Shown: one piece after another, positions 3,110 through 16,429 of the stretch
How positions within the stretch are numbered: position 1 is the first letter of the stretch
Layout: each line of letters begins with the position of its first letter
DNA from: Gammaproteobacteria bacterium
GTDB taxonomy: Bacteria; Pseudomonadota; Gammaproteobacteria; Thiohalomonadales; Thiohalomonadaceae
Length of the DNA: 64,000 nucleotides
NCBI GenBank assembly: GCA_024709225.1
Contig: JANJXC010000104.1
Span: forward strand, 1-64,000
Direction: 5' to 3'
Program-made: the position numbers and the translations under genes
Notes under the pieces: generated by a model
What the model saw: the letters and a program-made list of their open reading frames with translations, nothing else
Told to the model about the DNA's origin: nothing
Database searches by the model: none

Positions 3110-5869
3110 CTACCTACCGGTCTGCCGGATGGGCAACCAGACCCGGAACCGGGTACCGCGCCCCGGCTCGCTGTCCACCTCGATGCGCCCGCCGTGTTTT
3201 TGCACGATGCCATAGGACAGCGACAGGCCGAGCCCGGTGCCCTTGCCCACCGGCTTGGTGGTGAAGAAGGGTTCGAAGATGCGCTTGAGATGTTCCGGTG
3301 CGATGCCGGAACCGTTGTCTTCCACTTCGACCCAGACGTGGTCCTGCTCCTGCCCGGTGCGCACGGTGATGATGCCTTGCCGCTCCATGGCGTGCGCGGC
3401 GTTGACCAGGAGGTTCATGAACACCTGGTTGAGCTGCGAGGGCACGCATTCCACCTCCGGCAGCTCACCGTACTCGCGCACCACGTCGGCCTTGTACTTC
3501 AGTTCGTTGTGCACGATGTTGAGCGTGCTTTCCAGCCCCTGGTGCAGATCGGCCAGCTGCCAGTCCGCCTGTTCCTGGCGCGAGAAATCCTTGAGGTCCT
3601 GCACGATCTGCTTCACGCGCTTGATGCCCTCGCCCGACTCTCCGAGCAGGGCGCAGATATCCTCGCGCAGGTAGCCTATGTCGAGTTCCTGCTTGAGGGC
3701 ATTGATCCGCTCCAGCGCCGCGGCGTCGGCCAGGGCGGGCTCCGCCTTCATGTAGGCATCGAGCAGGGTGAACAGCCCCTGCAGATAGCGTCCCAGGCTG
3801 TTGATATTGGAACTGACATAACCCATCGGGTTGTTGATCTCATGGGCCACGCCGGCGGCCAGCTGGCCGATGGAGGCCAGCTTGTCGGACTGTCGCAACT
3901 GCTCGTCCATGCGGTGGCGCTCGGTGACATCCTTGGCGGTGCAGACGTAGTGGGTGACGTTACCTGCGGGGTCGCGCAGCGGCGAGATGGTTTCCTCGGC
4001 GTGGAACAGCTCGCCGTCCTTGCGCCGGTTGATGATGGCCGCGTGAAACGATTCGCCGTCGGCGATGGTCTGCCACATCTGCTGATAAAACGCCGCGTCA
4101 TGCAGGCCGGATTTGAGCAGGCCGGTCGTCTTCCCCAGCACCTCCTCCCGGCTGTAGCCGGTAATGCGTTCGAAGGCCGGATTCACATACTCGATGCCCC
4201 CTTGCGGGCTGGTGATGATGACCAGGTCGTCGGCCTGCTCCACCACGCGCAACAGGCGCTGCTTTTCATCCTCCGCCTCCTTGCGCCAGGTAATGTCGCG
4301 GCTGATGCCGCGATAGCCGGCAAACTCCCCGCTGCTATCGAACACCGGCACCCCGTTGGCCTCCATCAACACCACATGGCCATCCTTGTGGAGGGCGGCG
4401 ATTTCAATACCGCGAAAGGGTTCATGGCGCTGCAGCAGCGCGTCGATGACCGGGACCAGCTGCCCCGCCCTGATCGGCGGCAGCAAATCGACCGGCGTCT
4501 TGCCCAACAGCTCCTCCGGGGCGCAACCGAGCATCGCCCGCACCTGCGGGCTGACATAGGTATAACGGCCGGCGTCATCGATCTCCCACAGCAGATCATT
4601 GATGTTTTCCACCAGGCCGCGAAAGCGCTGCATGCTCGCCTGCAGCAGGGCCTCGATCCGCTCCTGCTCCTGCATCTGCGCGCGCAGATTGTTGCGCATG
4701 GACTCGAATGCCGCCGCCACATCCCCCAGTTCGTCCTGATAAAATCCGGTTATCGGCTTGTTCAGGTCGCCGGCGGCGATGGTGTGGGCGGCGCACTGCA
4801 GGCGCAGCAGCGGGCGCAAGCCACGGCGGTGAATGACGTACATCATGGCCAGCATGGTGCTCACCACCAGGGTCGCTGCAATCGTGAGCAGCAGCAGCTC
4901 GCGCCGCACCTGTGCCTTCACCTGCCGGATATCCTCTGCCGCCTTGATGCCCAGCTCCTCCGACAGGCTCATGATGGTGGCGATGGCGGCGGTAGCCGCA
5001 TCGAACCACTGTTCGGCACTCACCGGATAGGCCTGGCCGTGCATGCCGGCGTCATATACCCGCTGCCGCAATGCCTCGAACCGGCCCTGGTATTCCACCC
5101 GGAACGCCTCCCGCGCCGCCGCCACCTTGTCGTCCGGCGGCAGTTGCCGGATCACCGCGTCTGCACGCTGCAAATTGCCGGCGATCACCCCGCGGTAGCC
5201 GAACAGTTCCGCCATTTCATCCTGGGTTAACGGCCGCCCCTGCGCAATCACCCCGACGATCATTGCCCGCTCCCGCCCGGCGAATTCCAGCAGGTTATGT
5301 GCGATCTGTTTTACCAGGGGGTTATCGGTGTAGGGGTGTTCCTCGTCGTCATGAAAGCCCAGCGCAGCGCGGCGCAGCAGGGCCAGCTCGTCGATATACG
5401 CGGTTGTGACCTCGCGCCAGCGCGCAGTGCCGATCGCGTTTCCGTCTCCCTCCCATAGCCGGTCGGCCAGACGGCGCGCCTCCTCCAGGTGCTGCCGGGC
5501 CTGGGGCAGGTTGAGCGCGGCATCCTCCATCCACACCTTGCTCTCCAGTGCCTGCAGTTCCTGCAACTGATGGATCAGCCGCGCATGCAATTCGTCACCC
5601 TGCGCGCGCAACCGGCGCAACTGCGCCAGCTCCTCCGCCGTCCGCTGGGCGCGGGTCAGCAGCAGGGTCGTCCTGCCGCGCTCGATGCCGGCCTGATTGA
5701 TGGCACGCAGCGCCAGGCCGCCCAGGCGGTTGGCCTGCTCGATGCGCTCGGCCTTCTGCAGGCGCGCATAGGCATCGATCACATCCCCGCCTATGGCCAC
5801 CAGGGCGATAAGCACCATCAGGCCCATCAGACTGGTAAGCAAGTGGCGCAGCGTCAGTGTATGCAACAT
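3110..5869 (-). CDS. Membrane multi-PAS sensor histidine kinase
   Basis: A 919-residue kinase, last gene of the signalling operon. Order: TM1 (about 11-28), large periplasmic region (about 35-322), TM2 (about 325-346), HAMP (about 348-400), PAS (about 412-530), PAS (about 540-655), HisKA with GVAHEINNP (His676), and a HATPase with DNGSGIAP, FEPFFTTKP and GKGTGLGLS. The periplasmic part has ERGRTTLLL and GRERAMIVGVIAQGR, reminiscent of nitrate/nitrite-sensing (NIT) domains; that match is weak. There is no receiver domain, so phosphate must go to one of the separate receivers of the operon. It is 41 bp downstream of the receiver-GspE gene. Its HisKA/HATPase module closely resembles the soluble kinase at 8201-9427. 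Confidence 0.88.
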   Translation of the reverse strand: MLHTLTLRHLLTSLMGLMVLIALVAIGGDVIDAYARLQKAERIEQANRLGGLALRAINQAGIERGRTTLLLTRAQRTAEELAQLRRLRAQGDELHARLIHQLQELQALESKVWMEDAALNLPQARQHLEEARRLADRLWEGDGNAIGTARWREVTTAYIDELALLRRAALGFHDDEEHPYTDNPLVKQIAHNLLEFAGRERAMIVGVIAQGRPLTQDEMAELFGYRGVIAGNLQRADAVIRQLPPDDKVAAAREAFRVEYQGRFEALRQRVYDAGMHGQAYPVSAEQWFDAATAAIATIMSLSEELGIKAAEDIRQVKAQVRRELLLLTIAATLVVSTMLAMMYVIHRRGLRPLLRLQCAAHTIAAGDLNKPITGFYQDELGDVAAAFESMRNNLRAQMQEQERIEALLQASMQRFRGLVENINDLLWEIDDAGRYTYVSPQVRAMLGCAPEELLGKTPVDLLPPIRAGQLVPVIDALLQRHEPFRGIEIAALHKDGHVVLMEANGVPVFDSSGEFAGYRGISRDITWRKEAEDEKQRLLRVVEQADDLVIITSPQGGIEYVNPAFERITGYSREEVLGKTTGLLKSGLHDAAFYQQMWQTIADGESFHAAIINRRKDGELFHAEETISPLRDPAGNVTHYVCTAKDVTERHRMDEQLRQSDKLASIGQLAAGVAHEINNPMGYVSSNINSLGRYLQGLFTLLDAYMKAEPALADAAALERINALKQELDIGYLREDICALLGESGEGIKRVKQIVQDLKDFSRQEQADWQLADLHQGLESTLNIVHNELKYKADVVREYGELPEVECVPSQLNQVFMNLLVNAAHAMERQGIITVRTGQEQDHVWVEVEDNGSGIAPEHLKRIFEPFFTTKPVGKGTGLGLSLSYGIVQKHGGRIEVDSEPGRGTRFRVWLPIRQTGR

Positions 5870-5910: not shown

Positions 5911-8151
5911 TCAAACCGGTTCCTGCTGCGGCCCCAGCACCCGCAAGATCTCCGCCATATCGGTGCTGCCGTTACGCACCTTCTCCCAGGCATCCTGCAG
6001 CAGGGAGCGCACTCCCTGCACCCGCGCCGCGCGGTTGATCTCCAGCATGCTGGCCCCGCTGGTCATCAGATGACGCAGCTCGTCGTCGGGCACCAGCACC
6101 TCGAACAGCCCGATGCGACCCTGATAGCCAGAGCCGCCACAATGGCCGCAGCCACGGGCATGAAACACCTCCGGCAGGCGCTCGGCAGCGAACAGCGGCC
6201 CCAGCTTGCGGCTCAGCGCCGGATCGGGCGGCGCCGGCTCGCGGCAATGCGGACACAGGCGGCGCACCAGACGCTGGGCAATGATGCCCTCCAGCGCCGC
6301 GGCCACCACATAGGGCTTCAGCCCGAGATCGAACAGGCGCGCCACCGTGGCCACGGCGGAATTGGTGTGCAGGGTGGAAAACACCAGGTGCCCGGTGAGC
6401 GCCGCATGAAACGCCACCTCGGCGGTGTCGAAATCGCGGATCTCGCCCAGCAGGATCACATCGGGGTCCTGACGCAGGATGGAGCGCAGCACGATGGGAA
6501 AGGTCAGCCCGATCTGCTCACGGATATGCACCTGGCCCGCCATGTCCATGAAAAACTCCACCGGGTCTTCGATGGTCACGTAGTTGCGGCCGGGGTCGGC
6601 ATTGTGTTGCAGCAGCGAATACAGGGTATTGGTCTTGCCGCTGCCGGTGGGGCCGGTGGCCAGGATGATGCCCTGCGGCTTTTCGGTCAGCCGCTGTACC
6701 CGTTCCAGATCGTCGGCGGTAAACCCGAGCGCGCCCAGATCGCTGATGGCGGCGTTGCGGTCCAGCAGCCGCATCACCACCTTCTCGCCGCTGATGGTCG
6801 GCAGGGTGGACAGGCGCAGGTCGACGATGCGCAGCGGCGTCTTCACGGTGATGCGCCCATCCTGCGGCCGGCGCCGTTCGGCAATATCCAGCTCCGCCAT
6901 GATCTTGATGCGCGACACCAGGGAGCTGAAAATCTGATGGGGAATATGCAGCTTGTCCTTGAGGATGCCATCGATGCGGTAGCGCACCACCACACTCTTG
7001 GCGCGCGGCTGGATATGGATGTCGCTGGCCCGCAGGCGCACCGCCTCGAGGATGATGGCGTTGACCAGGCGCACCGCCGGCATCTCTTCGGTCTGGTGCA
7101 GCAACTCCTCCAGCGAGACGTCATCCTCTTCGTCAATGACGATCTCGATGCTTTCGAACGGATCGGTCATGGCGACCAGGGTTTCCATGTCGCCAAACGA
7201 CGGGCCGGAGTCTGCGCCATAGAGGTCGAGGATCTTGCTCTCGATGGCGGCACTGTCCGCCATCACCGTCTCTACCTCCAGGCCGGCGGAAAAGCGCAAA
7301 TCGTCGATCAGGCCGGTATCCATCGGGTCGGCCATCACCAAGGTCAGGCGCTTGCCCTCCAGGCGCAGGGGCAGCACCCAGTTGCGTTCGCAGAAGCTGC
7401 GCGGCAACAGCTCCGCCAGCGCCGGCTCCAGCGTGTGCTCGGCCAGCGCCACCTCCTCGATCAGCAGGTCCTTGCGCAGGATTGCCCGTATCGCCTTTTC
7501 GCTCACCCATTCCCGCGCCAGCAGCAGGCGCAACATCGGCTCCTTGCGCAGCTGGGAAAGTTTGTGCAGCTCCTGCACCTGCTGTTCGTTGAGCATGCCC
7601 TTTTTGTGCAGCATGATGGCAAGCTGGCTGCGATTGGTGACGGCAAGACGGGACAGCGCCTGGATCTCCTGCGACTTCTTGCTGTTTTCCGCCTGCAGCT
7701 GCCGATTGCGGCGGATCAGGTCATGCTGCTCCAGCGCCAGCGCCACCGTCACGCGCAGGTCGTCGTCGTTCCATGGCTTGAGGATGAACTTGTATACCGC
7801 TCCTTCGTTGACGGCACCCATGACCGCGCCGGTATCGGCGTGCCCGGTGAGCATGATGCGTATGGTGTCGGGCCAGGTCTGCTTGAAGCGGCGCAGCAGT
7901 TCGGCGCCGTTCATCTTCGGCATCATATAGTCGGAGATAACCACATCCACCGGTGTTGCGCTGCACAGGCGCAGCGCCTCATCGCCATCGGGCGCGGTCA
8001 GCACCTCATAGTTCTCCTGGCGGAAAACCCGCTGCAAGGCCTTGAGCACATTGGGCTCGTCATCGACGATCAGCAGGCGATAGCGTGCCGGCGCCGCCGG
8101 GTCCGGGGCGGCCGGGCTGTTACCGGTAAAAAACGAGGCGTAACCCGCCAT
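5911..8151 (-). CDS. Receiver domain fused to a GspE/PilB-type secretion ATPase
   Basis: A 746-residue fusion. Residues 24-140 form a complete receiver: DDE at 30-32, phospho-acceptor Asp74 in VVISDYMMP, Thr in LTGHAD, Lys in ILKPW. After a coiled linker (about 140-185), residues about 185-312 resemble the GspE/PilB/MshE N-terminal domain, but the RLGxxL c-di-GMP-type signature is degenerate. Residues 345-746 are a full E-type ATPase with Walker A GPTGSGKT (500-507), Asp box, Walker B ILLGEIRD, His box TGHLVFSTLHTN, and a CPHC/CGHC zinc tetracysteine (633, 636, 668, 671). The ATG at 8151 is preceded by AGGAG; the longer frame has no such site. No other type II secretion or type IV pilus genes are in the window. 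Phosphorylation probably tunes a pilus or secretion motor. Confidence 0.9.
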   Translation of the reverse strand: MAGYASFFTGNSPAAPDPAAPARYRLLIVDDEPNVLKALQRVFRQENYEVLTAPDGDEALRLCSATPVDVVISDYMMPKMNGAELLRRFKQTWPDTIRIMLTGHADTGAVMGAVNEGAVYKFILKPWNDDDLRVTVALALEQHDLIRRNRQLQAENSKKSQEIQALSRLAVTNRSQLAIMLHKKGMLNEQQVQELHKLSQLRKEPMLRLLLAREWVSEKAIRAILRKDLLIEEVALAEHTLEPALAELLPRSFCERNWVLPLRLEGKRLTLVMADPMDTGLIDDLRFSAGLEVETVMADSAAIESKILDLYGADSGPSFGDMETLVAMTDPFESIEIVIDEEDDVSLEELLHQTEEMPAVRLVNAIILEAVRLRASDIHIQPRAKSVVVRYRIDGILKDKLHIPHQIFSSLVSRIKIMAELDIAERRRPQDGRITVKTPLRIVDLRLSTLPTISGEKVVMRLLDRNAAISDLGALGFTADDLERVQRLTEKPQGIILATGPTGSGKTNTLYSLLQHNADPGRNYVTIEDPVEFFMDMAGQVHIREQIGLTFPIVLRSILRQDPDVILLGEIRDFDTAEVAFHAALTGHLVFSTLHTNSAVATVARLFDLGLKPYVVAAALEGIIAQRLVRRLCPHCREPAPPDPALSRKLGPLFAAERLPEVFHARGCGHCGGSGYQGRIGLFEVLVPDDELRHLMTSGASMLEINRAARVQGVRSLLQDAWEKVRNGSTDMAEILRVLGPQQEPV

Positions 8152-8200
8152 GTCGGCTCCTGTTGCGTTGTCCGGTATCTCCCGCGATACCGCCCATGCC

Positions 8201-9427
8201 TCAGCGCAGCGGCAACCACACCGTGAACGTGGTGCCCGCGCCCGGACGACTGTCGACCTCGATGCGCCCGCCATGGGCCCGCACGATGTCGTTGCTCACC
8301 GTGAGGCCCAATCCGGTGCCGCGACCGACCTCCTTGGTGGTAAAGAACGGGTCGAAGATGCGCGGCAAGACCGTGGGCGGAATGCCGCCGCCGTTATCGT
8401 GTACGCGCAGCCGGAGCTGCCCCTGTGCCACGGCCGTTTCGAAGGTCACCACCCCCGGCGGAGTGACGGCATCTGCCGCATTGAGCAACAGATTGAGTAT
8501 CACCTGACCGAGCTGCGCCGCATTGCAGCGCAATGGCGGTACCTCGCCCAGCACGAAGACAGGCGCCAGGCGCCCGCGGATCTGCCCTTCGGCCACATTG
8601 CACACCTGGCGAATGATGGCGTTGATGTCGGCCGCCTCCTCGCCGCCCTGATCGACGCGGGAAAATCCCTTCAGGTCGGCCACGATGCGGGCCACCCGTG
8701 CGGCACCGCTACGGCTCTCGTCGATGAGGTCGCTGAAGTCCTGCAGCACGAACCCCAGGTCGGCGGCGGCCCACGCCTGCTGCACGGCGGCGAGGTCGGG
8801 CGCCGCCGGCAGCTGCTCCGCCCAGTGTCCCAGACGTTGCAGATAGCCCTGTGCCGTATTCAGGTTGCTGGCGATGAAACCGATGGGATTGTTGATCTCG
8901 TGGGCAACCCCGGCCGCCAACTGGCCGACCGAGGCGAGCTTTTCACTCTGGTAGAGCCGCCGCTGTGTCGCCTCGATGGTCTGCACCTGTTCCGCCACGC
9001 GCTGCTCCAGATGCAGCGCCAGCTCGCGGTACCGCGCCTCGGACTCCTGCAGGGCCGCATGGCGGCGCTGCAATTCTGCGTAATCCTCATGCACTGCCTG
9101 CAAGTGCAATTCCGAGGCCATGAGATAGCGGGCGTTTGCGCGCAGGATCCATTGCAGCAGCACCACGGCGGCGGCGGCCTGTGCCTCGGTGGCGTCGCAC
9201 TCCAGATAGCCGATGGGCTCCATCTCGCCGCGCACCGGCAGGCGGACCCCGCCGTGTACCTCGCCCCTGGCCAGCAGCTCGCGGCCGCGCACATCGCTGA
9301 GGCGCAGCCCCGTCCCGAGCAGGGCGACCAGGGCATCCGCCAGCCGCGCACGATCGACCGAACGCAGCAACTCGTCCAGACCCAGTTCGCGATCAAAGCC
9401 GGCGGCGGGGACGGTATCCGGACTCAT
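8201..9427 (-). CDS. Soluble sensor histidine kinase with coiled-coil linker
   Basis: A 408-residue cytoplasmic kinase with no membrane segment. The first about 105 residues are a small sensor-like domain of unknown type, followed by a coiled coil (about 110-160), HisKA with GVAHEINNP (His176), and a HATPase with NLLLNAADAV, DNGGGIPP, FDPFFTTKEVGRGTGLGL and a normal C-terminus. Its start overlaps the stop of the GTPase gene by four bases (ATGA), so the two are translationally coupled. That suggests the GTPase and kinase act together. The N-terminal domain could bind the GTPase or a ligand; neither can be shown here. The GspE-fused receiver lies immediately downstream and is a plausible phosphate target. 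Confidence 0.88.
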   Translation of the reverse strand: MSPDTVPAAGFDRELGLDELLRSVDRARLADALVALLGTGLRLSDVRGRELLARGEVHGGVRLPVRGEMEPIGYLECDATEAQAAAAVVLLQWILRANARYLMASELHLQAVHEDYAELQRRHAALQESEARYRELALHLEQRVAEQVQTIEATQRRLYQSEKLASVGQLAAGVAHEINNPIGFIASNLNTAQGYLQRLGHWAEQLPAAPDLAAVQQAWAAADLGFVLQDFSDLIDESRSGAARVARIVADLKGFSRVDQGGEEAADINAIIRQVCNVAEGQIRGRLAPVFVLGEVPPLRCNAAQLGQVILNLLLNAADAVTPPGVVTFETAVAQGQLRLRVHDNGGGIPPTVLPRIFDPFFTTKEVGRGTGLGLTVSNDIVRAHGGRIEVDSRPGAGTTFTVWLPLR

Positions 9428-10077
9428 GGCGCAAGGCCCGCGGCGGCATCGACGAATGCGGGCCGGGTCAGGCCGTGTACCGCACTCAGCTGCATCTGGC
9501 CATCGATGGCGTCATACACCTGCTCCAGCAGGGCGCGTAACGTCTCCACCACCCCGCAGCCGATGAGTGCCGTGCTGAATACCACCGGCCAGCGTGCCCC
9601 CTGCCAGCGCGCCAGGATCTCTTCCTCGGCGAGCACACCGGGCAGGTCGCGCTTGTTGAACTGCACCACCAGGGGCAGCCGCTCGAAATCCAGTCCGACG
9701 CGGGCGGCATTCTCGGCCAGATTCTCAAAGGCGGCGCCATTGTTCACGCTCTGTGCCCGCTGCGAGTCGGCCACGAACACCACGCCGTCGGCACGCGACA
9801 GCACCGCCTTGCGGGTGCTGTCATGCTGCACCTGACCCGGCACCGTGAACAGCTTGAACTTGATCAGCAGGCCAGACGGAGCGGTGATGCCGAGCGGCAA
9901 CAGATCGAAGAACAAGGTGCGATCATTGTGTGTCTCCAGCGTCATCATCTCACCCTTCATTTCCGGCTGCAGCAGATCGTGCAGCCGCATCAGATTGGTG
10001 GTCTTGCCGCTCTGTGCCGGGCCGTAATACACCAGCTTGATGGTGATGCGTCCGGCCTCGGCCTCATAGTCCGCCAT
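9424..10077 (-). CDS. MglA-like Ras-type small GTPase
   Basis: A 217-residue GTPase. P-loop GPAQSGKTT (19-27), switch-region Thr (TLETHNDRT), DxxG-equivalent TVPGQVQHDSTRKAVLSRAD as in MglA proteins, VVFVADSQ, NKRD (QFNKRDLP) for guanine recognition, and a STALIG segment near the SAK position. MglA proteins set the leading pole and activate type IV pili or gliding motors in Myxococcus and related polarity systems. In this operon it sits between a receiver protein and a kinase: the upstream gene's stop is directly adjacent (TGAATG) and the downstream kinase overlaps by 4 bp. No MglB/roadblock gene, its usual GTPase-activating partner, is visible in the operon. Confidence 0.9.
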   Translation of the reverse strand: MADYEAEAGRITIKLVYYGPAQSGKTTNLMRLHDLLQPEMKGEMMTLETHNDRTLFFDLLPLGITAPSGLLIKFKLFTVPGQVQHDSTRKAVLSRADGVVFVADSQRAQSVNNGAAFENLAENAARVGLDFERLPLVVQFNKRDLPGVLAEEEILARWQGARWPVVFSTALIGCGVVETLRALLEQVYDAIDGQMQLSAVHGLTRPAFVDAAAGLAP

Positions 10078-10608
10078 TCACTCGCCGTCCCCATCCAGCA
10101 GTACCGAGCCGTCGTCACCCCAGCGCACCCGCGCGATCTCGGGATGGGTGCGCTCGAGTTCGCGCAGAGCCGCATCCTGCTGGCTGAGCTGGGTCTGCTG
10201 GCGCCGGACCTGATCGGCGAGGCGTCGATTCTCCACCAGCACGGCACGGTGCTCGAGCGCGCGATCGATGGTGATGCGCAAGTCGTCGGCATCCCACGGC
10301 TTGGGCAGAAAACGATAGATCTCGGCCTGATTCACCGCTGCCAGCAAGGCATGCCAGTCGGTATAGGCACTCAGGATCAGCCGCATGGCATCCGGCTGGA
10401 TGGCCCGAAAGCGGGTCAGAAATTCCACTCCGTCCATGCCCGGCATGCGGTAGTCGGACAACACCAGATCGAAGGTTGCCGTCTGGGCGCGGCGCAACGC
10501 CTCTTCGGCCGTAGCGAATGTTTCGATCGCGTGGCGCGGGGTGGTCAGCAGCCGTTCCAGCGAACGCAATACATTCGGTTCGTCATCCACCAGCATGATG
10601 CGATACAT
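10078..10608 (-). CDS. Response regulator, receiver plus coiled-coil tail
   Basis: A 176-residue protein. The receiver occupies about residues 1-125: DDE at 8-10, phospho-acceptor Asp52 in VLSDYRMPGMDG, Ser/Ala in ILSAYTD, Lys in FLPKPWD. A charged coiled-coil tail (about 125-155) ends in an acidic segment (WGDDGSVLLDGDGE). There is no DNA-binding or enzymatic output domain, so it probably works by protein contact, perhaps with the adjacent GTPase. Its start lies inside the 3' end of the HD-GYP gene (26-bp overlap), and its stop abuts the GTPase start. The Ser in place of the usual Thr after the Ile-Leu pair is a conservative change. Confidence 0.87.
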   Translation of the reverse strand: MYRIMLVDDEPNVLRSLERLLTTPRHAIETFATAEEALRRAQTATFDLVLSDYRMPGMDGVEFLTRFRAIQPDAMRLILSAYTDWHALLAAVNQAEIYRFLPKPWDADDLRITIDRALEHRAVLVENRRLADQVRRQQTQLSQQDAALRELERTHPEIARVRWGDDGSVLLDGDGE

Positions 10609-11932
10609 GGTCCTCTCCCTCCGCCAGAATATGAATCACAAATTCGCTGTGGTCGTCCCGCTCCAGGGCGTTGATCTTGCGCACCAGCGCCTCGGTGAGC
10701 CGATACCCCTTGGTGAGCAGCAGCACGCCATCCTGTCCCAGCAGATCGCGCGACAGCACCATCCCCGGCCGCAGCGCCGGCGGCTCCAGGCGCAACTCGC
10801 GGATCAGACCCTCACCGCGTTCGCGCGCATCGAGCACCGCAACGCAGGCATCCACCACGGCGCCGTCATAGCGCTTGTCGCGCCGCTGTTGCAGGAAACC
10901 GCGGGCATCCAGCGGGCTCAGTTCCTCGCCGAGCAGTGCGCCGCTGCGCAGGCCGTCATAATCGTTGGCCACGGCGACTATGCGCGCGCCGAGCGGGATC
11001 TGTTCGCCGTACAGCCGATCCGGATATCCCTTTCCGTCATAGTGCTCATGGTGGTGGCGGATGAACAAAGCGGTCTTCTGCAAGGGCTCCATGCCCATCA
11101 GGATGGCCTGTCCGGTGATCGGGTGTTTCTCCACCACCTTGCGCTGCGTGGTGTTCAGGTTGGCGGCCGGGATGCGCAACAGCCCGTCCGGCCACGCCAG
11201 CTTGCCGATATCGTGCAGCAGACCGGCGAAATAGATGTGGCGTACGTCGTCCTCTTCCAGCCCGAGATAGGTGGCTATGTCGCGGGCCAGCTCGGCCACC
11301 CGCTTGCCGTGGCCGCCGCCGGGTCCTTCACGCAGCTGCACCAGATTGGCGAATACCGGTATCGCGGCGTAATAACTTTCCTGCAGCTGCTCATAGGCCA
11401 ACTCCAGAAACATATTGGTCTGCCGCAACTCCTCGGTGCGCGCCACCACCTTCTGCTCCAGGGTGGCATTGAGCTCCTTCAGCTCGTCGTTCTGCCGCTG
11501 CGTCAGCGCCAGCAGGCTGTCACGCTCCGCCCGCAGACGCTTCTGCTCCAGGGCGTGCTGCACGGCCAGCTTGATGTCATTGTCTTCCCAGGGCTTGCTG
11601 AAATAGCCGTAGATCTGTCCCTGATTGATCGCCGCGATGGTGGAGGTGAGATCGGCATAGCCGGTCAGCAGGATGCGCACCACCTGCGGCCAGCGCTGCG
11701 CCACCTGGGCCAGGAACTGGGCGCCATCCATCTGCGGCATGCGCATGTCGGAGATGACCAGATCGATGGGCTCCTGTTCCAGGATTGCCAGGCCGCCCGC
11801 CCCGCTCTCCGCGGTGTGCACGGTATAGCCGAGGGGGCGGAACAGACGCCGCAACGAAGCCAGGATATTGGTTTCGTCATCGACCAATAACAGGGTGGCC
11901 GGTGCCGTGCTCACCGCCAGCGGTTCAGTCAT
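10583..11932 (-). CDS. Response regulator with HD-GYP (c-di-GMP phosphodiesterase-type) domain
   Basis: A 449-residue protein of the RpfG type. Receiver about 12-130 (DDE 18-20, Asp62 in VISDMRMPQMDG, Thr in LLTGYAD, Lys in FSKPWED), coiled coil about 130-185, HD-GYP about 190-365 with HGKRV, HDIGK (His240-Asp241), HHHEHYDGKGYPD and a complete GYP, then a C-terminal domain about 375-449 (LRPGMVLSRDLLG ... LLLTKGYRLT). HD-GYP enzymes hydrolyse c-di-GMP, and the metal ligands look intact. An AGGAGAG ribosome site precedes the ATG at 11932, after a 63-bp gap from the HDOD gene. The C-terminal domain resembles the separate 100-residue protein encoded at 12817-13119. Likely ties receiver phosphorylation to c-di-GMP level. 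Confidence 0.9.
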   Translation of the reverse strand: MTEPLAVSTAPATLLLVDDETNILASLRRLFRPLGYTVHTAESGAGGLAILEQEPIDLVISDMRMPQMDGAQFLAQVAQRWPQVVRILLTGYADLTSTIAAINQGQIYGYFSKPWEDNDIKLAVQHALEQKRLRAERDSLLALTQRQNDELKELNATLEQKVVARTEELRQTNMFLELAYEQLQESYYAAIPVFANLVQLREGPGGGHGKRVAELARDIATYLGLEEDDVRHIYFAGLLHDIGKLAWPDGLLRIPAANLNTTQRKVVEKHPITGQAILMGMEPLQKTALFIRHHHEHYDGKGYPDRLYGEQIPLGARIVAVANDYDGLRSGALLGEELSPLDARGFLQQRRDKRYDGAVVDACVAVLDARERGEGLIRELRLEPPALRPGMVLSRDLLGQDGVLLLTKGYRLTEALVRKINALERDDHSEFVIHILAEGEDHVSHHAGG

Positions 11933-14848: not shown

Positions 14849-16429
14849 ATGAAAAAGAACTTCCCCATCACCGGTAACGAAGTAAGTTTTGCCGACAGCG
14901 CCAACATCCTCTCCACCACCGATCTCAAGGGCGCGATTACCTACGTCAATGACGATTTCATCGCCATCAGCGGCTTCACCCTCGATGAGCTGATGCACAA
15001 GAACCACAACGTGGTGCGCCATCCCGAGATGCCGCCGGCCGCCTTCGAGGAACTGTGGAGCACGGTCAAGAGCGGCCGCTCCTGGATGGGCATGGTGAAG
15101 AACCGCTGCAAGAATGGTGACCACTACTGGGTCAGCGCCTATGTCACGCCGATCCTGCAAAATGGCCAGGTGGTGGAATATCAGTCGGTACGCACCAAAC
15201 CCAAGCGCGAACTGGTCCAAAAGGCGGAAAAACTCTACGCCGAACTGATGGCGGGGCGTACGCCGCTGGCGCTGCGCCTGCCGCGTATCGGTATCAAGAG
15301 CAAGGTATTCGGTGCCATGGCCATCGGCGTCGGCACCGGTCTGGCCGCCGCCGCCTTCACTGGGCTGACGCTGGCCGGCGCCGCCCTCATCGGCGGCGTG
15401 ACGCTGGCGGTGGGCGGACTGCTCGGCATGGCCCTGCTCTCCCCCCTGTGCCGCGTCGTGGCCCACGCCCGCACCATCGCCAACAATCCGGTGGGACAGC
15501 TGCTCTACACCGAGCGCATGGACGAGGCCGGCGAGCTCATGTTTGCCATGAAGATGCTGGAGGCCGAGGCCAGCGCCGTGGTGGGACGCATTGCCGATGC
15601 CTCGCTGCAACTCTCCGGCACCGCCGACAATCTGGTGGCCGCGGTCGAGCACAGCAGTGTCGGCATCCGCCAGCAGCAGGGCGAGACCGATCAGGTGGCC
15701 ACGGCGATCACCGAGATGGCGGCCAGCGTACAGGAGGTGGCGCGCAACGCGCAGAATACCGCCGATGCCGCCGACAAGGCCGATGCCGAGGCGCGCGCCG
15801 GCCGCCAGGTGGTGGCCGACACCAGCAGCGCCATCGGCCGCCTGGCCGCGGAGGTGGAAAAGGCCTCCGGCGTGATCCAGCAACTGGAGGCGCACAGCAG
15901 CGAGATCACCTCCGTGCTCGACGTGATCCGCGGTATTGCCGAACAGACCAACCTGCTGGCGCTCAACGCGGCCATCGAGGCCGCCCGCGCCGGCGAACAG
16001 GGCCGTGGCTTTGCCGTGGTGGCCGACGAGGTGCGCACCCTGGCCTCACGCACCCAGCAGTCGACCCAGGAGATCCGCGCCATGATCGAAAAGCTGCAGG
16101 AGGGCGCCCGCTCGGCAGTGAAGGTGATGGGTCTGAGTCGTGAACAGGCAGACAACAGTGTCGAGCAGGCGCGTCACGCCGCCGATTCGCTGGAAAGCAT
16201 CACCCGCAGCGTTCGGGTCATCACCGACATGAGCGCGCAGATCGCCACCGCCGTGGAGGAACAGAGCGCGGTCGGCGAGGAGATCAACCGCAACATCATC
16301 TCCATCCGCCACATCTCCGATGCCAATGCCCACACCGGGGCGGAAAGCGAACAGGCGGCGCAGAACGTGGCTCACCTGGCCTTGAGCCTGCGCAATCTGG
16401 CAGCACAGTTCTGGGCCAAGCGGCGCTGA
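14849..16429 (+). CDS. Aer-type PAS methyl-accepting chemotaxis protein
   Basis: A 526-residue receptor. An N-terminal cytoplasmic PAS domain of the Aer type (about 10-130: [44 protein letters not shown]) is followed by a hydrophobic anchor (about 150-195) with no periplasmic domain, then a full signalling domain with the hairpin-tip sequence [26 protein letters not shown]. Aer proteins bind FAD and sense internal redox or energy state for aerotaxis. The conserved PAS features are present, but FAD binding is inferred. It is divergently transcribed from the 10-gene signalling operon and has its own sigma-28-type promoter. Confidence 0.93.

Follow-up and report, generated by a model that had tools for sequence, protein, structure and literature searches.

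A PilB-like ATPase with a fused receiver domain is encoded with an MglA-type GTPase and a soluble histidine kinase in a compact, conserved triad

In Myxococcus xanthus, PilB is brought to the pilus machine by the GTPase MglA acting with its effector SgmX, and the receiver-domain protein FrzS assists (PMC11580455). The receiver is carried on FrzS, separately from the motor, and mglA lies away from the genes of its response-regulator partners, as described in a 2014 survey of MglA-family gene neighbourhoods (PMC4316618). In that survey, the gene contexts of Group 1 MglA proteins vary widely, Group 2 proteins are found in the conservons and Group 3 proteins are found with a receiver-like protein and MglB. 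The actinobacterial conservons (CvnA-D) are conserved units placing a histidine kinase and an MglA-family GTPase side by side (PMC4316618, PMC13343842). Type IV pilus assembly also receives two-component input through the control of PilB by PilG/PilH, PdeK-PdeR and FimX. The receivers of these systems reside on separate proteins, and a 2024 review of PilB control mentions neither MglA nor a receiver-fused PilB in the text searched (PMC11656802). A receiver and an MshEN domain do occur together in a single protein, Bdellovibrio Bd2402, which binds c-di-GMP tightly, and a 2016 paper lists the receiver-MshEN combination as a domain architecture (PMC5013675).

We analysed a window of 64,000 nucleotides (the whole stretch of DNA under study: positions 1 to 64,000 of contig JANJXC010000104.1) from a gammaproteobacterium of the Thiohalomonadaceae. 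Within a series of signalling genes on the minus strand, a single operon encodes an MglA-family GTPase, a soluble histidine kinase and a PilB-like ATPase with an N-terminal receiver; we term these three genes the triad and the ATPase its motor (Table 1). The nearest functional precedent is MglA/SgmX/FrzS of M. xanthus, in which, together with SopA, an MglA-family GTPase and a receiver protein are tied to a PilB-type motor. The triad differs in its single operon, its dedicated kinase and the fusion of the receiver to the motor. It shares the adjacent histidine kinase and GTPase with the conservons, but a conservon unites the CvnA kinase, CvnB roadblock, CvnC and CvnD GTPase in one operon, whereas the triad contains neither a CvnB roadblock nor a CvnC gene, has the receiver-motor as its third gene and encodes a GTPase with an intrinsic arginine finger that is absent in Group 2. 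The fused receiver sets the motor apart from PilG/PilH, PdeK-PdeR and FimX control, and the absence of the c-di-GMP motif sets it apart from Bd2402.

With PilB and GspE/MshE the motor shares an MshEN-like domain, a T2SSE ATPase with all motor motifs and the tetracysteine; PilB crystal structures were its best solved relatives in a PDB comparison, with HD-GYP/HupR-type receivers those of its N-terminus. It is distinguished from these ATPases by a receiver predicted to be functional, an N-terminal (Y/F)xxLF peptide, a clade of its own and the lack of an adjoining platform gene. The triad goes unmentioned in the accessible portion of the 2014 survey (PMC4316618). No description of it was found in the openly searchable literature, so an earlier one may exist elsewhere. 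The preliminary description of this DNA had held that its claim would fall if the architecture proved widespread and already characterised: the receiver-MshEN fusion itself has been mentioned before (PMC5013675), whilst we found no characterisation of the motor or of its operon.

Table 1. Coordinates of the motor, its domains and the neighbouring signalling genes in the window
Feature	Position	Strand	Remarks
REC-MshEN-like-T2SSE fusion ATPase, motor of the triad	5911..8151	minus	746 aa
N-terminal conserved peptide of the motor, Y4-G10 (YASFFTG), then variable linker	8122..8142	minus	
Receiver domain, residues 24-136; D30, D31, D74, T102, K125	7744..8082	minus	
D74, predicted phosphoacceptor	7930..7932	minus	
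Predicted long helix, residues 129-167, joining receiver to MshEN-like domain	7651..7767	minus	AlphaFold model
MshEN-like N-domain with degenerate c-di-GMP motif, about residues 175-314	7210..7629	minus	
T2SSE/PilB-type ATPase, residues 353-737; Walker A/B, Asp and His boxes, tetracysteine	5941..7095	minus	
Soluble histidine kinase	8201..9427	minus	408 aa; directly upstream of motor
MglA-family Ras-like GTPase	9424..10077	minus	gene end overlaps kinase start by 4 bases
Membrane histidine kinase (NIT-HAMP-PAS-PAS-HATPase)	3110..5869	minus	downstream of motor
Short response regulator	10078..10608	minus	immediately upstream of GTPase; frequent, not constant partner
Response regulator with HD-GYP, c-di-GMP phosphodiesterase type	10583..11932	minus	frequent triad partner

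The preliminary description, which dealt with the motor alone, had proposed a receiver fused to a GspE/PilB-type ATPase. The span that it gave proved correct, with the gene on the minus strand, and the fusion was confirmed, since every receiver and ATPase residue that it named, D74 included, is present. The adjoining kinase and MglA-type GTPase, which are near-invariably conserved with the motor, had been missed. A mechanically called open reading frame runs from 5911 to 8274; the actual start is the ATG at 8151, which is preceded by an AGGAG-like ribosome site (acaggagccgacATG) and lies about 50 bases past the stop of the upstream kinase gene. A scan for promoters and terminators returned nothing beyond chance level.

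Pfam matches above the curated cut-offs were obtained for Response_reg (residues 27-136, 93 bits), MshEN (residues 234-314, 62 bits) and T2SSE (residues 353-737, 417 bits). The receiver possesses the acidic pair, phosphoacceptor Asp, Thr/Ser and Lys expected of a response regulator. The ATPase combines the T2SSE domain with the Walker A/B motifs, Asp and His boxes and catalytic Glu of an extension-type traffic ATPase of the PilB/GspE superfamily: Walker A (GPTGSGKT) occupies residues 500 to 507, the Asp box lies around residues 526 to 531, Walker B/Glu is at E570, the His box at H595 and the cysteines at 633, 636, 668 and 671. The protein misses the NCBIfam equivalog cut-offs for both GspE (546 of 630 bits) and PilB (540 of 676 bits). 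The peptide ahead of the receiver takes the form (Y/F)xxLF across the family, with F8 present in 42/42 full-length motors, and we suggest that it may be a candidate docking motif. An AlphaFold model of the full-length motor was of low overall confidence (mean pLDDT 66.6, pTM 0.29), too low to support claims about domain interfaces.

The triad kinase comprises a conserved N-terminal alpha/beta domain, a long helix and a HisKA/HATPase_c core, and no membrane helix was predicted. Its H176 and ATP-site residues are invariant in 24/24 triads, and the catalytic residues of GTPase and kinase together are conserved in 23 to 24 of the 24. The fold of the N-terminal domain (residues about 11-100) is predicted with good confidence; the domain has no Pfam match, and the fold-search matches listed are kinase structures, none of which identifies it. 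It is a possible sensor or GTPase regulator. Assignment of the kinase to the NCBIfam family T2SS_HK was rejected (265 of 450 bits, the match being confined to the kinase core). Another kinase subtype occupies the kinase position in three Desulfobacterota triads, and at locus L122 (genome G016, 7546-8734) the kinase is broken into two reading frames (one with residues 1-149, the other with residues 226-407), reflecting either decay or an assembly error.

The window GTPase scores 151 bits against M. xanthus MglA, in an alignment covering residues 10 to 187. The MglA hallmarks, namely the intrinsic Arg finger R53, the G3 threonine T78 in place of Asp and the catalytic glutamine Q82 (M. xanthus numbering), are found in 24/24 triads, and the triad GTPase has the residues of the MglA Group 1 type. 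In a further departure from M. xanthus, an MglB-type roadblock (PF03259) is absent from 12 of 15 genomes, namely those Pseudomonadota whose GTPase scores highly; the window genome has one copy, away from the triad. Thus, regulation of the GTPase differs from the MglA model, and the kinase N-terminal alpha/beta domain and the neighbouring response regulator are candidates for switching it off. Many Desulfobacterota MglA homologues scoring 195 to 226 bits lie in open frames of 300 to 500 residues and may carry an extra domain. Carriage on plasmids was considered and discarded, as it was seen for one distant GTPase only.

Among the other neighbours, the membrane histidine kinase downstream of the motor is a possible second input. 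The HD-GYP response regulator belongs to NCBIfam NF053512 (annotated as NosR family c-di-GMP phosphodiesterase; 552 bits against a cut-off of 400), and the same run continues beyond it with an HDOD protein and additional response regulators. Just past the run, on the plus strand at 14849-16429, is a frame resembling a methyl-accepting chemotaxis protein with a PAS-like N-terminal part.

By its appearance, the triad is a self-contained unit controlling a type IV pilus motor. In our preferred reading, to which we give about an even chance, the three genes form a module in which the receiver-fused PilB-like motor is the effector of the MglA-type GTPase and the soluble kinase, gating type IVa pilus extension. 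The kinase would receive its signal via its small N-terminal domain, via the state of the GTPase or via both, and would phosphorylate D74. The phosphorylated receiver would alter the packing of receiver and long helix on the MshEN-like domain, favouring the active hexamer. GTP-bound MglA-like protein would position the motor or permit its engagement of the type IVa platform PilC, at which the motor may compete with, or add to, housekeeping PilB. Phosphotransfer from the triad kinase, contact of the GTPase with motor or kinase, the direction of activation and pilus extension as the output are steps that we infer. Points that count against the model are the lack of pilus genes next to the triad, two genomes with a motorless GTPase-kinase pair, the degenerate motor of locus L021, the frequent absence of a roadblock protein and the differing kinase subtype at three Desulfobacterota loci. 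Direct phospho-control of the motor, as the preliminary description had it, would be the natural reading of the sequence: the intact halves and a soluble kinase directly upstream in the same operon speak for it, with the phosphotransfer itself presumed. A rather doubtful version envisages type IV pilus assembly under a two-key switch, operated by motor phosphorylation and GTP loading of the MglA-like protein, in which the kinase N-domain would replace MglB as the regulator of the GTPase (GAP or sensor).

The machine served by the motor was sought through its platform proteins. By homology, no pilus or platform gene lies beside the triad in the regions inspected, and Pfam searches place the PilC/GspF platforms elsewhere in the window genome and in relatives. 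Of the seven large T2SSE ATPases in the window genome, three (GspE, PilB and MshE) each adjoin one of its three platforms; the receiver-motor and three other ATPases are orphans. A PilC/GspF-type platform is present in 23/23 genomes tested (22 with the triad, plus G402), which is weak evidence for a pilus role because such platforms are common. In genome G633 (1.9 Mb, 99% complete), which carries the triad, the sole platform is PilC, adjacent to pilB and pilD; besides the receiver-motor, PilT/PilU-type ATPases are encoded elsewhere in it.

A different kind of motor might be at work, driving not type IVa pili but a secretion-like or unknown envelope machine with its platform encoded elsewhere. 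Such a role would accord with a motor clade apart from PilB, GspE and MshE, with the near-equal GspE and PilB scores, with the lack of adjacent pilus genes and with the several platforms of most triad genomes. It is nevertheless unlikely: G633 offers only PilC, beside its own pilB and pilD; G769 likewise has a single platform, though its motor (locus L021) is degenerate; and no unknown platform gene accompanies the triad. Most simply, the receiver-motor would act at the platform of type IVa pili. With PilC the only platform in G633, a second extension motor for type IV pili, gated by phosphorylation and by the GTPase, is favoured.

Conservation was assessed over 42 full-length motors. Receiver residues D30, D31, D74, T102 and K125 are invariant in all 42, as are the Walker Lys, the catalytic Glu, the Arg residues checked and the four cysteines of the tetracysteine zinc site (C633, C636, C668 and C671). 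T507 and H595 are each retained in 41/42 and D529 in 35/42. Identity of the receiver and ATPase residues other than D529 in 41 to 42 of 42 relatives indicates that the fusion arose neither by chance nor through misassembly, and the earlier claim that both halves are intact is borne out by catalytic residues that are complete and strongly conserved. At L021 (9989-12238, from the halomonad Vreelandella nanhaiensis) the receiver is intact, with an altered Walker A (G503D, T507L) and H595R.

The ATPase half could alternatively act as a regulatory decoy, turning PilB off through mixed or competing hexamers, whether phosphorylated or not. Orphan motors are indeed common, as the seven large ATPases and three platforms with a neighbouring ATPase in the window genome illustrate, and L021 keeps its receiver whilst its Walker A and His-box residues are changed. 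However, a pure decoy would not need the Walker, Glu, Arg and Cys residues that are kept in 41 to 42 of the 42 motors, and we consider this explanation quite improbable.

In a maximum-likelihood tree, 24 receiver-motors group in a single, fully supported clade that is separate from PilB, GspE, MshE and other orphan ATPases of the same genome; a clade of 42 members persists in a quick tree with a support of 0.80. The single clade indicates that the receiver was most likely fused once. Receiver-ATPase fusion as a general trait of PilB was rejected, the next 65 best database relatives (from Geobacter, Nitrospira and others) having no receiver.

The order GTPase, kinase, motor on one strand was found at 43 distinct loci in Gamma-, Beta- and Deltaproteobacteria/Desulfobacterota, thereby spanning at least two phyla. 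In a motor-anchored search, all 15 full or near full-length relatives (Gamma-, Beta- and Deltaproteobacteria) were preceded by the GTPase and then the kinase. As an independent test, whole-genome profile searches were performed with the GTPase alone. Amongst Pseudomonadota, 14 of the 15 genomes with a GTPase of at least 326 bits carry the triad, counting G016, in which the motor runs into the contig end; in 395 genomes of Desulfobacterota (the phylum of Desulfogranum), 19 of 20 GTPases of at least 295 bits belong to a triad. The exceptions, one in each phylum (G402, locus L108, and G973, locus L163), have GTPase and kinase with the motor missing; at both loci another kinase or hybrid regulator takes the place after the kinase. 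A lower-scoring MglA homologue served as control; this one (L176, 219 bits) lacks both the kinase and the motor as partners. The distribution is wide but patchy, and even in the genus to which the window belongs the triad is absent from 2/5 genomes.

The pairwise distances for the three triad proteins are correlated (r 0.76-0.79), with 0/2000 label permutations reaching as high; this shows joint inheritance, not contact. In one genome (G007, L110; C64:138000-152000, about 6549-7236) the GTPase lacks its middle and is frameshifted, no kinase remains and the motor is reduced to its final part, whilst the neighbouring response-regulator, HD-GYP and HDOD genes are intact and 73-85% identical to those of the window. 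Loss of the three triad genes together fits one functional unit.

These data bear on the proposal that GTPase and kinase constitute a separate pathway and that the motor is a mere neighbour in a hub of two-component genes. The region is crowded with response regulators and kinases, and the motorless pairs of G402 and G973, which also count against our preferred model, suggest that GTPase and kinase may have another output. Set against this are the strict order and adjacency at 43 loci in at least two phyla, the joint loss in G007 and the constancy of the triad amidst hub genes that vary, and we accord a separate pathway little probability. That the motor is an ordinary T2SS or pilus ATPase whose receiver is without regulatory consequence is scarcely credible, for although receiver-MshEN fusions exist in databases (PMC5013675), the five receiver residues are invariant across phyla.

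The tandem c-di-GMP motif RLGxx(L)(V/I)xxG(L/V/I)(L/V/I)xxxxLxxxLxxQ is absent from the window motor and from 41/42 members of the family, agreeing with the degenerate signature noted previously for the window motor. The first half-motif is intact in one motor only (L172), and many Desulfobacterota motors retain much of it together with the receiver. The accompanying suggestion, that the receiver has replaced nucleotide control, is unsupported: the motif is likewise missing from two receiver-less ATPases of the window genome, PilB and GspE, and from the PilB of G633, and the Desulfobacterota motors with a receiver and a largely intact first half-motif oppose it. In some lineages, then, receiver and near-canonical half-motif occur in one protein, and motif loss in others says little about replacement. 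G633 additionally encodes another orphan PilB-like ATPase (L131, 3797-6220); this protein of 807 residues is extended at its N-terminus and has a single near-canonical c-di-GMP half-motif.

Routes leading from a Ras-like GTPase and a receiver to a pilus motor are known mainly from Myxococcus, where they pass through several adaptors that are not encoded together. The triad, present in at least two phyla, brings the same three elements into a compact operon and has its receiver built into the motor protein. This arrangement renders direct phospho-control, and coupling of GTPase to motor free of MglB, testable with three purified proteins. If the model is true, it would also mean that pilus motors can receive input over dedicated two-component lines that are distinct from c-di-GMP.
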